A stretch of 64,000 nucleotides of DNA. Source: Nitrospirota bacterium. GTDB taxonomy: Bacteria > Nitrospirota > Thermodesulfovibrionia > Thermodesulfovibrionales > Dissulfurispiraceae. Of this stretch, positions 52,155 to 62,208 are shown piece by piece (within the stretch, counting starts at the first letter, position 1; every line of letters begins with the position of its first letter). Under the pieces are notes generated by a model that saw nothing but the letters and a program-made list of their open reading frames with translations, did no database searches and was not told where the DNA came from. The stretch lies in contig JBFMHE010000007.1 in assembly GCA_040752355.1 (NCBI GenBank), positions 62,001 through 126,000 on the forward strand. Reading direction: 5' to 3'. Made by a program: the position numbers and the translations under genes.

Positions 52155-53366
52155 ATGTCGGATTTTTATCAAACAGGCGTAGTCGCCACCTTTCATAGGC
52201 TCGGCAGGCCCAACCTGGAGAAGATCGAGGCGGAGCTTTCATGGTATGCCTCGGCCCGCCCCCTCGCCCTCGTGCTCCCCTCCCTCTACAGCGAGCTCCA
52301 GGGAGAGGCGCTCAAGGGAATCGTGCGGGAGCTCCGGGAGGTCGGCTACGTCAAGGAGATTGTCGTAACGCTCGGCCCCGCCTCCCGCGAGGAGTTCGAG
52401 CACGCGAAACGCTTTTTCTCGGTCCTGCCGCAGAAGACCAGCATCGTATGGAACGCAGGCCCGCGCCTCAGCGAGATCTATCAGGCGATAAAGGAGGCCG
52501 ACCTGCACATCGGCGAGCCGGGCAAGGGGAGGTCTGCCTGGATGGCCTACGGGTACATTCTATCGCGGCAGGAGTTCTATGCCATTGCCCTGCACGACTG
52601 CGACATTCTCACCTACAGCCGCGACCTGCTGGCGCGGCTCTCCTATCCCGTGGTCAATCCCAATCTCGGTTACGACTTCTGCAAGGGCTTCTACAGCAGG
52701 GTCACCGACCGCCTGCACGGCAGGATGACGAGGCTCCTCGTTACCCCGCTCATACGGTCGATCCAGCGCATTCTCGGCGGCTACCACCCCCTCCTCGCCT
52801 TCTTCGACAGCTTCCGCTATCCCCTCGCCGGAGAGTTTTCGATGGATATCGATATGGCGCGGGTCAACAAGATACCCGGGGATTGGGGACTCGAAGTAGG
52901 GGTGCTCGCCGAGGTCTACCGGAACACCTCGCTGCGAAGGGTCTGCCAGGTCGACATAGCGGAAAACTACGAGCACAAGCATCAGGCGCTCTCTCCCGAC
53001 GATGCCTCGAAGGGGCTCCACAAGATGGCGGTGGACATATGCAAATCGATCTTCCGGACCCTGGCCTCGGAGGGGATCGTCTTTTCGAGCGGGTTCTTCA
53101 AGACGCTGGTCGCAGCCTATGTGCGGACCGCCCAGGATATGCTCAAGCGGTACGAGGATGATGCTGCGATCAACGGTCTCTTCTTCGACCGGCACGAAGA
53201 GAGCCTCGCCATGGAGACCTTCACCAACGGCATCCGGAAAGCGGCGGAGATCATTACCGAGGACCCTCTCGGCGTGCCGCTGATCTCGAGCTGGGACAGG
53301 GTGACCTCGGCAATCCCCGATATTCTCCCGCGGATCCGGACGGCAGTCGAAGAAGACAACGCTTAA
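52155..53366 (+). CDS. GpgS-like glycosyltransferase (GT81-type)
   Basis: AAGGAGG lies before the ATG. The 403-residue cytoplasmic protein has a GT-A fold with the metal-binding motif HDCDILTYS, FCKGFYSR, PLAGEFSMD, GDWGLEVGVLAEVYRN and VDIAENYEHKHQ. The order and wording match glucosyl-3-phosphoglycerate synthases, which make the precursor of the compatible solute glucosylglycerate from an NDP-glucose and 3-phosphoglycerate. The phosphatase (GpgP) is not adjacent. It opens the compatible-solute and envelope gene run. Donor specificity is not readable from sequence. Confidence 0.75.
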   Translation: MSDFYQTGVVATFHRLGRPNLEKIEAELSWYASARPLALVLPSLYSELQGEALKGIVRELREVGYVKEIVVTLGPASREEFEHAKRFFSVLPQKTSIVWNAGPRLSEIYQAIKEADLHIGEPGKGRSAWMAYGYILSRQEFYAIALHDCDILTYSRDLLARLSYPVVNPNLGYDFCKGFYSRVTDRLHGRMTRLLVTPLIRSIQRILGGYHPLLAFFDSFRYPLAGEFSMDIDMARVNKIPGDWGLEVGVLAEVYRNTSLRRVCQVDIAENYEHKHQALSPDDASKGLHKMAVDICKSIFRTLASEGIVFSSGFFKTLVAAYVRTAQDMLKRYEDDAAINGLFFDRHEESLAMETFTNGIRKAAEIITEDPLGVPLISSWDRVTSAIPDILPRIRTAVEEDNA

Positions 53367-55852: not shown

Positions 55853-55895
55853 TGCCTGCCGTCGGGAGCAGGGCAGCACGAAGAAGGAGGGATCA

Positions 55896-56552
55896 ATGGA
55901 GACGACAGCGCCGTTCGAGTTCAAGCAGTACGTGAGCATTCTCAAGTCCACCGGGAGGAAAGCCGGTACGCTCAGGGAGTTGAGAGAGGCGATTGCCGCA
56001 GTAAGCAGCAAGTCGCTCTTCCATCATACCTGCCAGTATTTCGTGAAAGGCCATGCCCTCGAGTATACCAACGACTTCGCCCACTGGGCGGGCGAGAGCC
56101 TCGAAGAGCGGGCGCTGGCCGAGCAGCTCTCGAATATCGACTCCTATGCCTTCACGCATATCGACGACCTCAGGGCTGCGCTGCTCTCGGTGATCGACGA
56201 CTACCTGCTGCGCTTCCCCGAGCCCCGTGCAGCGATGGCCGGTGATGCGTTCCACTTCAACGAGACCGTCTCGTTCGTCTTTTCCGCAGGGATCAGGGTG
56301 CAGAACCTCGCGGAGTTCCTCATCGCCCTGCGCTACCTCGATCCCAGCGCGCTCTATTACCACTTCCACGAGGCGCGGGTCCGCCTCGGCAGCGACGACC
56401 TCTCGGCATGGGTCGAGGCCGCTCTCGGCAGGGAAGGGCTCGCGCAGAAGATCCGGGCCATCGACCCCTTCATGCACAGCATCGAGGGCATCAGGGAGCT
56501 CCTCGTCGAAGCGGTGGAGGAAGAGGTCCGCAGGGGCATGGAGGTGCTGTGA
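55896..56552 (+). CDS. DUF5752-like protein upstream of TreT
   Basis: AAGGAGG precedes the ATG at 55896 by 7 bases; the frame is open far upstream but without a start signal. The 218-residue soluble protein is mostly helical with many His and Glu (SLFHHTCQYFVKGHALEYTNDFAHWAG). I recognise it, without certainty, as the DUF5752 family seen next to trehalose genes. Its stop overlaps the treT ATG by one base, so it is made together with TreT. Its biochemical role is unknown; a regulatory or chaperone partner of the glycosyltransferase is one possibility. Confidence 0.7.
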   Translation: METTAPFEFKQYVSILKSTGRKAGTLRELREAIAAVSSKSLFHHTCQYFVKGHALEYTNDFAHWAGESLEERALAEQLSNIDSYAFTHIDDLRAALLSVIDDYLLRFPEPRAAMAGDAFHFNETVSFVFSAGIRVQNLAEFLIALRYLDPSALYYHFHEARVRLGSDDLSAWVEAALGREGLAQKIRAIDPFMHSIEGIRELLVEAVEEEVRRGMEVL

Positions 56553-57766
56553 TGCTGCTCGACCGGTACTCCGGAATTGCCCCCAAGGGCGATCTGCTGC
56601 TCCTCCGGAAGCTCGGGGAGCGCCTTCAGGGAAAGACCTTTCTGCATGTGAACTCCACCCGGAGCGGCGGCGGCGTGGCCGAGATCCTGCAGCGCATGAT
56701 CCCCCTCATCCTCGATCTCGGCATTACGGCCCGCTGGGAGGTGATCGAGGGAGACGACCGCTTCTTCGATATCACCAAGAAGATGCATAACGCCCTGCAG
56801 GGCAACCCGGAGCGTTTTACCGAGGCTATGTGGTCGCACCATTACGAGGTGAACCGGCATAATGCGGAGCATCTCGACCTCGGGGCCGATGCGGTGCTGA
56901 TCCACGATCCCCAGCCTGCGCCGCTGATCGAGTTCAGAAAGGGCGGCCGGTGGTTCTGGCGCTGCCACATCGATGTATCGAACCCCCTGAAAGAGGTGCG
57001 GGACGCCCTTCAGCGCTACTGCGCGCGCTACGACGCAGCGGTCTTCTCGGTCGCGCGGTTCGCCCAGGCGCTGCCGATCAGCGAGTTCATCATAGCCCCG
57101 TCCATCGACCCCCTGAGCGACAAGAACAGGGAGATGGACGACAGCGAGATACGCGCGGTCCTCGAACGGCTCGGGATCCCCGCGGACCGGCCGATGATCC
57201 TGCAGGTCTCCCGCTTCGACCGGTTCAAGGACCCGATCGGCGTGATTCAGGCCTACCGCATGGTGAAGAGGTACAACGACTGCATCCTCGTCCTCGCCGG
57301 CAGCCCCGCCACGGACGACCCCGAAGGAGCGGCGGTGCTCGACGAAGTCACGGCGTACGCCTCTGACGACCGCGACATCTACGTGCTGCTCCTGCCCCCC
57401 TTCAGCGACCTCGATATCAACGCGCTGCAGCGCAGCGCCACCGTGATCTTCCAGAAGTCGCTCAAGGAAGGGTTCGGCCTGACGGTCTCGGAAGCGATGT
57501 GGAAGGGGAAGCCGGTCATCGGCGGCGCGGTGGGCGGCATTCCGCTCCAGATCGTCCACGGCGTCACCGGGTTCCTCGTCCACTCCGCAGAAGGGGCGGC
57601 GTTCAGAGCACGGCAGTTCCTCAATAACCCCGGCATGGTGAAACGGATGGGGGAGAAGGGAAAGGACTATGTACGGAAGAACTTCCTTATTACGAGACAG
57701 CTGAGGGACTATTTATCGGTATGGTACCGGGAGGAAAACGGCCGGAAAGAAGTGATGGAGCTCTGA
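56552..57766 (+). CDS. treT: trehalose synthase TreT-like (GT4)
   Basis: The 404-residue GT-B enzyme shows the TreT text FLHVNSTRSGGGVAEILQRM, RWEVIEGDDRFFDITKKMHN, and the GT4 nucleotide-sugar site KEGFGLTVSEAMWKGKPVI with GGIPLQI. TreT makes trehalose directly and reversibly from an NDP-glucose and glucose, without a phosphate intermediate. It is coupled to the DUF5752-like gene by a one-base overlap and precedes the sensor-GT20 fusion by 1 base. Confidence 0.85.
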   Translation: MLLDRYSGIAPKGDLLLLRKLGERLQGKTFLHVNSTRSGGGVAEILQRMIPLILDLGITARWEVIEGDDRFFDITKKMHNALQGNPERFTEAMWSHHYEVNRHNAEHLDLGADAVLIHDPQPAPLIEFRKGGRWFWRCHIDVSNPLKEVRDALQRYCARYDAAVFSVARFAQALPISEFIIAPSIDPLSDKNREMDDSEIRAVLERLGIPADRPMILQVSRFDRFKDPIGVIQAYRMVKRYNDCILVLAGSPATDDPEGAAVLDEVTAYASDDRDIYVLLLPPFSDLDINALQRSATVIFQKSLKEGFGLTVSEAMWKGKPVIGGAVGGIPLQIVHGVTGFLVHSAEGAAFRARQFLNNPGMVKRMGEKGKDYVRKNFLITRQLRDYLSVWYREENGRKEVMEL

Positions 57767-57767
57767 T

Positions 57768-60023
57768 ATGAAGATATCCATTCGCCTTATCGTCTCTCTT
57801 GTGGTGGTGAGCGCTCTCGTCGCCGTGGCCTTTTCATTCTACCAGGCGAACGAGGAGAAGCACCGCCTCATCACCGAGCTGGAGCGGAGGACTATCGTCC
57901 TTGCCGACAGCCTGGAGGAGTCGGTGGTAAGCCTGATGCAGTCGGCGTCCACCGCGCGGCTGAACCGCCTGGTGGTACGGTTCGGCAATCGCGAGCGGCT
58001 CAAGGGGGTCGCCCTGTTCGACCGGCAGGGCGCTGTCGTCGCATCGACGCCGGAGCTCAGACCGCAGATCCCGCATCCCTTTCCCGCAGCGGTGCGGTCC
58101 ATCGCCGGCAGCCAGCCCGTCAGCAGCTTCATGGATATCGACGGGAAGAATGTCTATGTCTACACCGTCCCGCTTCCGGCGGAAGAAAAGGTCAGCGGGA
58201 CCCTCGCGTTGTTCCACGACGCGTCCTATATCGATGTACGGCTCAGGGAAATATGGCACTACAATTTTCTCCGCTTCCTGATCCTCACCGCCCTGATCGT
58301 CTTTATCACGCTCGTCGTGGTGCGGTGGAGCATCACCGGTCCGATCGCGCAGATTGCGGAATGGATGAAGGAGCTGCGGACAGGAAAAGGCAGGGTCGAG
58401 CACTCCTCGATACTGCCGAGGGGGGATGTCCTCGCTCCCCTCGTCTCCGAGGTCACCCATCTCGCAAAGAGCCTCGCGGTCGCGCGCGCAAAGGCGGAGG
58501 AGGAGGCCAGGAGGCGCGTGCAGATCGATTCGCTCTGGACCGCCCAGCGCCTGAAAGAGCATATGCGCATCGAGCTGAGCGGCAAGAAGCTGTTTCTCGT
58601 CTCGAACCGCGAGCCCTATATGCATGTAAAGGACGGAGGCCTGGTGCGGTGCATCGTTCCGGCAGGAGGGCTGGTGACCGCCCTCGATCCGGTGATGCGG
58701 ATATGCGACGGGCTCTGGGTCGCCCACGGCGGGGGCAATGCAGACCGCGAAACGGTCGGCGCGGGCGATACCCTGCGGGTGCCGCCCGAGAGCCCTTCGT
58801 ACACGCTCAAGAGGATATGGCTCTCGAAGGAGGAAGAGCAAGGGTACTATTACGGGTTCTCGAACGAGGGGATATGGCCGCTCTGCCACATCACGCATAC
58901 CCGTCCGACGTTCCGGCTGGAGGACTGGGTGTATTACCAGAAGGTGAACGAAAAGTTTTCCGAAGCCCTCCTCGCAGAGATAGCCGGCGAAGAGTCGCCC
59001 CTGATCCTGATCCAGGACTACCATCTCGCCCTCCTTCCGCTGCTCATCAAGGAGAGGCGGCCCGATGCGCGGGTGGCGCTCTTCTGGCATATACCGTGGC
59101 CGAACCCCGAAGCGTTCGGCATCTGCCCGTGGCAGCAGGAGATCCTCATGGGCATGCTCGGGGCGGATATCGTCGGCTTCCACATACAGTTCCATTGCAA
59201 CAATTTCCTTGATACGGTCGACCGGTTCCTCGAATCGAAAATCGATTGGGAACAGTTCTCCGTCACCCGCGGCGGCCATACGACCCAGGTGAAGCCCTTC
59301 CCCATAAGCGTCCGCTTCGACGGCGTTACCGAGAAGGCGGCCGCAGTGCAGGAAGCGCTCCCGCTCAAGGAGAGTCTTCTCAAGGAGATAGGAGTATCCG
59401 TACGGTACCTGGGCATGGGCGTGGACCGTATCGACTACACCAAGGGAATTCCCGAGCGGTTCAGGGCGATCGAGCGTTTTCTCGAAAAGCATCCCGAATT
59501 CATCGGCGCCTTCACCTTCGTGGAGCTCGGCGCTCCGAGCCGGACCCACATCAAGCGGTATCACGACCTGATAGCTGAGGTGGAGGAGACGGTGAACAGG
59601 ATCAACTGGCGTTTCGAGGTGAAAGGGTGGAAGCCTATCGTCCTCCTCAAGGCGCATCACAGCCACGAAGCGATCAGCCGGTTCTACCGCGTGGCCGACG
59701 TCTGCATGGTGACCTCCCTGCACGACGGCATGAATCTCGTCGCAAAAGAGTTCGTCGCCTCCCGCGATGACGGGGACGGCGTACTGATCCTCAGCCGGTT
59801 CGCCGGCGCATCGAGGGAGCTGACGGAGGCGCTTATCGTGAACCCCTACGACATCGAGGAGATGGCGGACGCCGTTTATCTCTCGCTCACCATGGAGCCG
59901 AAACAGAGAGCGGAGCGGATGTCCCGTATGCGCACGGTGGTGAGGGAAAACAATATTTACCGCTGGGCCGCGGACCTGATCACCGCCCTTGCGCGCCTCC
60001 GGCCATCGGGTGAGATGGAGTGA
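57768..60023 (+). CDS. otsA: membrane sensor fused to trehalose-6-phosphate synthase (GT20)
   Basis: Of 751 residues, the first ~270 are a signal-transduction front end. It has TM1 at about 7-25, a periplasmic domain of about 140 residues, TM2 at about 168-186, a HAMP-like linker ([13 protein letters not shown]), and a helical connector to about 265. Residues 274-745 are a complete GT20 domain: [55 protein letters not shown] and [13 protein letters not shown], which include the arginine, lysine and acidic residues used by OtsA. GT20 enzymes make trehalose-6-phosphate (or glucosylglycerol-phosphate) in the cytoplasm and are normally soluble. Here synthesis is presumably controlled by an extracytoplasmic signal. 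Confidence 0.88.
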
Positions 60024-60173: not shown

Positions 60174-61454
60174 ATGGGCGATATCACGTTGCGGAAGGAG
60201 CTGATGCAGCAGCTTGAAGCCATAGGACGGGCTGAGATTCTTATCGGTATTCCGAGCTATGACAATGCGCACACCATAGCGCATGTGGTGAAGGCGGTGC
60301 AGATCGGACTCGCCAAGTACTTCCCCGACAAGAAATCGGTAATCGTCAATTCCGACGGCGGATCGAAGGATGGCACCATGCAGGTCGTCCGTGATACGAC
60401 GATCGACGATCTGCAATCCATACTGCTCCGTCATCGCGTGGAGCCGGTCCTCAAGATCGCTACCCCCTATCACGGCATCCCCGGCAAAGGCAGCGCCTTC
60501 AGGACGATCTTCGAGATCGCAAAGGCGCTCGAAGTGGACGCCTGTGCCGTGGTCGACTCCGACCTGAGGAGCATCACGCCGGAGTGGGTCGAGCTCCTGA
60601 TCAAGCCGGTCGTGGAGGGAGGATTCGATTATGTCGCCCCGCTGTACCACCGCCACAAGTACGACGGCACCATCACGAACAGCATCGTCTATCCCCTCAC
60701 GAGGGCCCTCTACGGCAAACGCATACGCCAACCCATCGGGGGGGACTTCGGATTTTCGGGGAGGCTCGCCTCCTTTTATCTGATGCAGGAGGTGTGGGAG
60801 AGCGATGTGGCGCGGTACGGTATCGACATCTGGATGACCACGACCGCCATCGCCAACGGGTTCCGGGTCTGCCAGTCCTTCCTGGGCGCAAAGATACACG
60901 ACCCGAAAGACCCCGGCGCCGATTTGAGCGCCATGCTCTACCAGGTGGTCGGCTCTGCCTTCGACCTCATGGAGACCTACGCTCCTGTCTGGTCCCGGGT
61001 GACCGGCTCGGAGCCGGTGCCGACCTTCGGGTTCCAGTACACGGTGGGCCTCGAACCCGTTGCGGTCAATGTCGACCGGATGATCGACAAGTTCAGGCTC
61101 GGCGTGAAGGAGCTGGCGGGACTGTGGCAGGAGGCACTCCCGTCCGGGGTCGTGGAGGAGCTGAAGGAGCTCGAACAGAAGGGCAGGGAGGAGTTTTCTT
61201 TTTCCGACGGCCTCTGGTCAGAGATCGTCTGCCGCTTCGCCCTGGCCGTGCGCGAGAAAAGAGTCTACAAAGAGCATCTGCTCAGATCGATGACGCCGCT
61301 CTATATAGGCAGAACCGCTTCGTTCGTCCTCGAGACGGAGGAGAGCGGGGCCGCCGAAGTAGAGGAGAGGATCGAGCAGCTCTGCAGGACCTTCGAGGAG
61401 ATGAAGCCCCTGCTTATCGGGCAATGGGAGCACAAGGAAGGCCGCGAGGAGTGA
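60174..61454 (+). CDS. GT78-like glycosyltransferase (mannosyl/glucosylglycerate synthase-like)
   Basis: The 426-residue cytoplasmic GT-A enzyme has a GT2-like start (LIGIPSYDNAHTIAHVV), the metal motif VDSDLRSITPEW, then IRQPIGGDFGFSG, YGIDIWMTTTAIANG and AKIHDPKDPGADL. The last blocks parallel mannosylglycerate synthase of Rhodothermus (GT78) and glucosylglycerate synthases, which make glycosylglycerate in one step. With the GpgS-like enzyme at 52155 this gives two candidate routes to glucosylglycerate. The start at 60174 is 4 bases after the otsB remnant. Confidence 0.75.
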   Translation: MGDITLRKELMQQLEAIGRAEILIGIPSYDNAHTIAHVVKAVQIGLAKYFPDKKSVIVNSDGGSKDGTMQVVRDTTIDDLQSILLRHRVEPVLKIATPYHGIPGKGSAFRTIFEIAKALEVDACAVVDSDLRSITPEWVELLIKPVVEGGFDYVAPLYHRHKYDGTITNSIVYPLTRALYGKRIRQPIGGDFGFSGRLASFYLMQEVWESDVARYGIDIWMTTTAIANGFRVCQSFLGAKIHDPKDPGADLSAMLYQVVGSAFDLMETYAPVWSRVTGSEPVPTFGFQYTVGLEPVAVNVDRMIDKFRLGVKELAGLWQEALPSGVVEELKELEQKGREEFSFSDGLWSEIVCRFALAVREKRVYKEHLLRSMTPLYIGRTASFVLETEESGAAEVEERIEQLCRTFEEMKPLLIGQWEHKEGREE

Positions 61455-61509
61455 GATCGTATGATCATCCGGCCGACAATTGCAGATCGACTATTTTCAG
61501 GAGGGACAC

Positions 61510-62208
61510 ATGATACCTGGTGTTGAACGGTTCATAATAGAGCCGGCAGAGCGATTTCTCGAAAAGGTGGCGCTCTTCCTGCCGAACCTCTTCTCATCGC
61601 TGCTGATCCTGGCCGTCGGCGCCTGCGCAGCGTGGCTGACAAAGCATATCGTGCTGCGCATACTCCGCATGATGAAGCTCGCCGAGCTTTCGGAGCGTTC
61701 CGGAGTGGAGGGCCTGCTCCTCAAGGGGGGCATCCGTGAGCCCTTTGCCGCGGTGGCGGGCAGGCTCGCCGGCTGGCTGGTTTTCTCCATATTCATTCTG
61801 ATATCCCTGAGCACGCTCACGGTCCCGGCCGTAGAGCGGCTCCTCGAACGGATGCTCCTCTATCTTCCCAATCTTTTCGTTGCGCTCGCCATCGTGGTGA
61901 TCGGCGTGCTCCTCGCCAACTTCTTCGGCAGGGCGGCGCTCATCGCGTCGGTCAATGCCGGGCTGGCCATGGCGGGACTGATCGGCAAGACGGTAAAGCT
62001 CGCTGTCTTCCTCTTCACGCTTTCGGTCGCCCTCGAGCAGCTCGGGATCGGCAAGGAGACGGTCCTGCTCGCGTTCGGCATACTGTTCGGGGGCGTCGTC
62101 CTGGCGCTCGCCCTCGCCTTCGGCCTCGGCGGCCGGGAAGCCGCGCAGTCGTACATCGAGAAGAAACTTTTCTCCGAAGAGGAGAGAGATGATATTCACC
62201 ACCTCTAA
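61510..62208 (+). CDS. membrane protein with conserved TM-helix (MscS/CmpX-like) repeats
   Basis: GGAGGG precedes the ATG at 61510. The 232-residue protein has about four membrane helices arranged as two repeats (LPNLFSSLLILAVGACAAWL and LPNLFVALAIVVIGVLLANF) and the glycine-rich TM-helix segment FGILFGGVVLALALAFGLGG. This is the pore-type helix repeat found in CmpX and MscS-related proteins. It lacks the MscS beta domain. In this setting an osmotic or mechanical role is plausible but inferred. Confidence 0.75.
   Translation: MIPGVERFIIEPAERFLEKVALFLPNLFSSLLILAVGACAAWLTKHIVLRILRMMKLAELSERSGVEGLLLKGGIREPFAAVAGRLAGWLVFSIFILISLSTLTVPAVERLLERMLLYLPNLFVALAIVVIGVLLANFFGRAALIASVNAGLAMAGLIGKTVKLAVFLFTLSVALEQLGIGKETVLLAFGILFGGVVLALALAFGLGGREAAQSYIEKKLFSEEERDDIHHL

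Follow-up and report, generated by a model that had tools for sequence, protein, structure and literature searches.

Kinases, cyclases, cyclic-di-GMP enzymes and chemotaxis are the known outputs of HAMP receptors, and HAMP-coupled adenylate cyclases and GGDEF proteins are one-component receptor enzymes. To our knowledge, the outputs of such HAMP-coupled receptors either produce second messengers or act by modifying proteins. The protein described here resembles these enzymes in having a periplasmic sensor, two transmembrane (TM) helices, HAMP and an enzyme in one chain, but its output would be a phosphorylated precursor of a bulk protectant. With the histidine kinase WalK (YycG) it shares the TM1-extracytoplasmic Cache-TM2-HAMP arrangement and its fold, but it has no histidine kinase, the output being a glycosyltransferase predicted to make a metabolite precursor. 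With the trehalose-6-phosphate synthase OtsA (E. coli 1gz5/1uqt, M. thermoresistibile 5jio) it has in common the whole GT20 domain, its fold, the catalytic residues and, in half of the loci, an OtsB partner. In contrast to this protein, OtsA is soluble, without the 270-residue membrane receptor in front, and has Trp40 in place of His320.

The gene lies in a 64,000-nucleotide stretch of a Nitrospirota genome (the window). Its frame is open and intact over 751 codons at 57768-60023(+), with the ATG one base past the TGA stop of the upstream TreT-like gene. The earlier note had read the product as a continuous two-TM sensor and HAMP-like linker joined to a complete GT20 domain, and this anatomy was confirmed by the open reading frame, the Pfam GT20 match, an AlphaFold2 model and the WalK fold. 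Its parts are as follows (all on the + strand):

57768..60023, +: receptor-fused GT20 protein, whole gene, 751 aa (61-77% identical to full-length relatives in five genomes of the same family or order)
57768..57851, +: TM1, residues 1-28, the helix extending into the periplasm to residue 58 (AlphaFold2 model, alignment)
57852..58256, +: periplasmic WalK-like single Cache (sCache) domain, residues 29-163 (fold match, Pfam matches of relatives, NCBIfam WalK)
58257..58328, +: TM2, residues 164-187 (AlphaFold2 model, fixed segment length)
58329..58535, +: divergent HAMP, with AS1 188-205, connector 206-222 and AS2 223-256 (two-helix model, Pfam HAMP in relatives, WalK alignment)
58536..58589, +: conserved linker helix, residues 257-274, ahead of the GT20 β1 strand and Arg281 loop (fixed length)
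58590..59999, +: GT20 (OtsA-like) catalytic domain, residues 275-744 (Pfam, OtsA alignment, fold match)

Other proteins joining HAMP or a two-TM sensor to GT20, a search for which the earlier note had proposed, were found: a scan of 84,980 bacterial genomes revealed at least 551 confirmed relatives, the best 80 of which supply the locus counts given below.

Residues 1-274 match no Pfam domain at ordinary thresholds, and a phmmer search of the N-terminus against the PDB gave no match. Pfam HAMP was not detected in the window protein, where a scan of the N-terminus at E values up to 10 returned only dCache (0.11-0.15). The Cache and HAMP domains were recognised only through fold comparison and through relatives. 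The AlphaFold2 model of residues 1-274, built from 48 relatives (mean pLDDT 86.5), comprises a helix at 2-58, a Cache fold, a helix at 153-205 covering TM2 and the first HAMP helix, a 17-residue connector, a helix at 223-256 and the linker helix at 259-271. Thus, two TM helices enclose an extracytoplasmic sensor in the model, in agreement with the fold matches, and two helices (188-205 and 223-256) with their connector follow directly after TM2. The closest solved fold is full-length WalK (9a5d; 271 residues aligned, Z 16.4), the alignment extending through residue 274, and the NCBIfam WalK model matches residues 4-249 (E 5.4e-7). The periplasmic domain has a Cache fold, as indicated by its match to the WalK extracellular domain (4ywz; Z 15.6, 134 residues, 2.3 Å) and by Pfam sCache_3_2 in 12 of the 48 relatives (best 1.3e-8). 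Pfam HAMP was found in eight of the same 48 (best E 3.6e-5) and Pro192 of this segment is nearly invariant in the alignment of relatives; because the scores of the relatives read singly all fall under the Pfam curated cut-off (best 23.8 versus 25 bits), the HAMP of this family is divergent. The nearest proteins outside the family in related genomes align in the sensor part only, and the two that were scanned are HAMP histidine kinases.

The neighbouring genes that bear on function are listed below:

52155..53366, +: second GpgS-like glycosyltransferase, upstream in the conserved block (NF040724, E 1.9e-106)
55893..56552, +: DUF5752 protein, fused to an MscS channel in several relatives (PF19027, E 1.9e-54)
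56552..57766, +: TreT-like GT4 of the trehalose synthase type (PF21269, E 1.7e-52; NF041139, 391 bits, under the cut-off of 775)
60174..61454, +: GpgS-like GT81-type glycosyltransferase (NF010496, E 3.7e-12)
61480..62208, +: MscS-type channel-like membrane protein (PF05552, E 2.7e-13; NF033912, E 3.3e-18)

The ATG of the TreT-like gene overlaps the stop of the gene before it, and relatives of the GT81-type product align from residue 27 of its longer open reading frame. In the lineage of the window the block runs GpgS-like, SH3, M23, (MscS), DUF5752, TreT, X, GT81-like and MscS, where the slot X holds a soluble OtsA-OtsB in five genomes (G017, G004, G022, G186 and G214), the receptor-GT20 gene with OtsB in G254, and the receptor-GT20 gene alone in the window. 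The soluble OtsA-OtsB proteins of related Nitrospirota (L128, L129, L130, L136 and L147) occupy this position, flanked by TreT and the GT81-type gene, and are 42-44% identical in the GT20 part, but they have a fused phosphatase instead of a receptor. The gene that comes after soluble OtsAB in relatives is 68-73% identical to the GT81-type gene of the window. Compared with the TreT next to soluble OtsAB in relatives, the window TreT has 74-77% identity, whereas its identity to the TreT that accompanies the receptor gene in L027, L029 and L139 is only 53-54%, even though the receptor proteins there are 71-73% identical to that of the window. On the simplest reading of this contrast in sequence identities, the receptor form would have displaced the soluble enzyme within an existing trehalose operon. 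On either side of the trehalose genes lies a GpgS-like glycosyltransferase gene, and these two differ from each other. The block is conserved among relatives, where the upstream gene is syntenic with 73-84% identity. This position of the pair suggests that a second solute, of the glucosylglycerate type, is co-made with trehalose.

We consider it fairly probable (roughly 0.6) that this protein is a trehalose-6-phosphate synthase acting as a one-component transmembrane receptor enzyme, its activity set by the WalK-like Cache domain through TM2, HAMP and linker, with an osmotic or envelope signal as the probable input. Its catalysis and regulation, signalling based on a dimer, and the sign and nature of the signal are what we infer from sequence and models. 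The Cache domain would receive the signal, probably osmotic or envelope stress, and pass it via TM2, the divergent HAMP and the rigid linker helix to the GT20 domain, where a shift of the HAMP could open or close the active site. This would be possible because the linker runs straight into the β1 strand and the Arg281 loop (Arg9 of OtsA), which belong to the mobile acceptor-binding part of GT20 enzymes, and control of this loop by HAMP is likewise something we infer. The corresponding region of OtsA is reported to shift by more than 10 Å on acceptor binding, and its N-domain has been called dynamic owing to movements of helix α1 (PMC3441724, PMC6879718). The GT20 domain would then make trehalose-6-phosphate, which OtsB would dephosphorylate to trehalose.

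As to the nature of the signal, an osmosensor is only one option, because the Cache fold often senses small ligands or the state of the envelope. A regulated trehalose-6-phosphate synthase that responds to a small periplasmic ligand or to envelope state, and not to osmolarity, is therefore a serious possibility, though one we hold at clearly less than even odds. The nearest folds point towards it, since after WalK the next solved ones are the sensor domains of KinD, DctB and CitA, and several structures of this set are ligand-bound. Against it stand the MscS genes of the operon and two kinds of fusion that point to osmotic physiology. DUF5752 is joined to an MscS channel domain in a protein encoded directly upstream of TreT (L029:4272-5654, where the channel domain is MS_channel_2nd, and likewise L027, L135, L139 and L140), and DUF5752 could be a trehalose- or osmo-related regulator. 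The second is an in-frame MscS-GT20 fusion of 722 aa with a complete GT20 domain (L145:5184-7349(-)), which is kept in five genomes, all from a single genus of the window's phylum (L148-L152), with 80-82% identity to the first. Like the window protein, this fusion couples GT20 to a membrane sensor that would respond to osmotic force, but a mechanosensitive-channel domain replaces Cache-HAMP, and on the GT20 tree it has a separate origin. Judged from gene content and fusions, MscS in the operon together with the separate MscS-GT20 protein appears to favour an osmotic signal. The non-osmotic alternative overlaps with the receptor-enzyme reading, in which the signal stays open.

The receptor-enzyme reading draws further on signs that the two halves are coupled. 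The distance from Trp257 to the end of the NRxP motif is 27 residues in all 78 sequences, Trp257 and Leu262 are invariant in the linker helix, and the segment of stalk and TM2 measures 35 residues in 76 of 76 relatives. The HAMP connector varies from 13 to 17 residues, and AS2 of the Nitrospira proteins is shorter by exactly seven residues, or one heptad. The dN/dS ratio was approximately 0.06-0.35 in every computable segment, sensor and HAMP included; thus, the sensor segments are under purifying selection. These features weigh against the idea that the N-terminal half serves only as a membrane anchor, placing the enzyme near MscS channels or other operon products with no signal transmitted. 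The divergence of the HAMP is compatible with an anchor, as are two Omnitrophota proteins (L090:5252-7111 and L095:4989-6776) in which the periplasmic Cache domain, and in one of the two a TM helix as well, has been lost. However, even these truncated members keep HAMP and linker along with GT20, and of the 74 aligned relatives, drawn from about ten phyla, more than 70 retain the Cache domain. Since a mere anchor would need neither a kept Cache domain nor a linker of fixed length, we regard this alternative as unlikely. L090 and L095 represent natural sensor-less controls. One other protein, L052, carries a deletion through TM2, perhaps an assembly error or a true deletion, and was left out of the analysis.

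The GT20 domain is complete, with PF00982 spanning residues 276-742 (E 9e-115; 384.5 bits versus a cut-off of 32.5; profile positions 4-472 of 473), and it is the sole GT20 in the 3.57 Mb genome when searched by family. The best solved match of the whole model is M. thermoresistibile OtsA with ADP and glucose-6-phosphate (5jio). Alignment with E. coli OtsA places all of R9, Y76, W85, D130, H132, H154, R262, K267, R300, D361 and E369 in the window protein, positions (in structure numbering) that are catalytic or substrate-binding in OtsA. The conserved residues of the domain are R281, Y361, W370, D417, H419, H441, R554, K559, R592, D653, N656 and E661, and the catalytic ones are invariant in 74 of 74 relatives, barring rare changes at Y361 and H419.

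A transmembrane-regulated GT20 enzyme could also have a product other than trehalose-6-phosphate, using another acceptor phosphate (compare glucosylglycerol-phosphate synthase and VldE). The position of OtsA Trp40, in the acceptor-side loop, is His320 in the window protein, and no member of the receptor clade has Trp there (of 74 relatives, 55 have His and the others Gln, Ser or Ala), whereas the soluble sister proteins retain Trp; with this replacement, the acceptor preference might differ. In addition, the window protein misses the NCBIfam OtsA equivalog cut-off (TIGR02400, 427.9 versus 564.85 bits) and OtsB is absent from its operon. However, the soluble sister L128 also misses TIGR02400 (456) yet passes NF011071, so that the operon slot is one exchanged with true OtsAB, and the GgpS model scores lower on the window protein than that for OtsA (302 versus 428 bits). 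The acceptor contacts listed for mycobacterial OtsA are Arg18, Tyr90, Asp144 and Arg324, which do not include the Trp40 position and whose equivalents are retained in the receptor family. The OtsB family (PF02358) is the commonest neighbour, occurring in 47 of the best 80 loci and mostly directly downstream; TreT-like GT4 proteins are found in 39 and DUF5752 in 32 of them. The window genome has one OtsB-type phosphatase (L137:2514-4253, G000:C4), located outside the operon, to go with its single GT20. Its OtsB domain is fused to a β-phosphoglucomutase-like HAD domain, and the gene adjoins one of the GH65 phosphorylase type. Trehalose as the pathway is supported by the neighbour genes, and we judge a different product to be improbable, more so than a mere anchor.

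Complete receptor-GT20 architecture is present in nearly all of the best 80 loci, which come from Nitrospirota, Acidobacteriota, Elusimicrobiota, Omnitrophota, Patescibacteria, Bacteroidota, Rokubacteria, Methylomirabilota, Gemmatimonadota and Edwardsbacteria; the figure of about ten phyla is approximate, because single metagenome contigs may carry a mistaken bin label. The earlier note had named a frameshift or assembly join near residue 260-275 as a danger to its reading, and such an artefact or chance fusion can be dismissed, the junction being collinear and at fixed spacing in the five other genomes of the family or order, in nearly all of the best 80 loci, in Nitrospira-like genomes, and in unrelated assemblies that include the isolate Niastella soli (L074) and the complete Elusimicrobiota genome CP096137 (L067). 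Within the phylum of the window, the whole protein was found in 55 of 246 sampled genomes, many of them from a Nitrospira-like family. The idea that the Nitrospira sensor is a different kind of domain was rejected, as these members have the same sensor layout as the window protein.

A GT20 tree of 81 rows unites all 51 receptor-fused rows in a single clade with a support of 100, which corresponds to a single change, while OtsA-OtsB fusions form another clade and MscS fusions a third. The root is unsure, since the tree was made by a quick method with few long outgroups, but the single origin is clear within it. Thus, the receptor-GT20 proteins are a widespread family of single origin and not a one-off, annotated elsewhere plainly as GT20 or OtsA. 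The earlier note knew of no compatible-solute glycosyltransferase driven by HAMP, and for trehalose-6-phosphate synthase the open-access literature agrees with it, as no HAMP-coupled form was found described there, an absence that is weak evidence. Open-access papers on DUF5752, the MscS fusion and Nitrospira trehalose likewise contained no description of such a protein, and the family is apparently undescribed. A paper on comammox Nitrospira speaks of plain OtsA/OtsB (PMC11014942).

More tentatively, and at a little under even odds, we propose that these proteins constitute a new receptor class, a receptor glycosyltransferase in which an extracellular signal, probably an osmotic one, would directly set the production of a compatible-solute precursor, with no kinase, second messenger or transcription in between. 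Such a class would be of ancient origin and occur in about ten phyla, and MscS-GT20 in related bacteria would be a second and independent solution of the same problem. The latter offers an independent comparison, in which two different membrane sensors are joined to one enzyme. If the receptor half controls GT20, post-translational control of trehalose synthesis would become testable in vitro with a single protein, and the range of HAMP outputs would be wider. A biosynthetic enzyme would then be under direct transmembrane signalling in about ten phyla, including the Nitrospira-like nitrifiers, and a stress protectant would be switched on directly by a signal from outside the cell.
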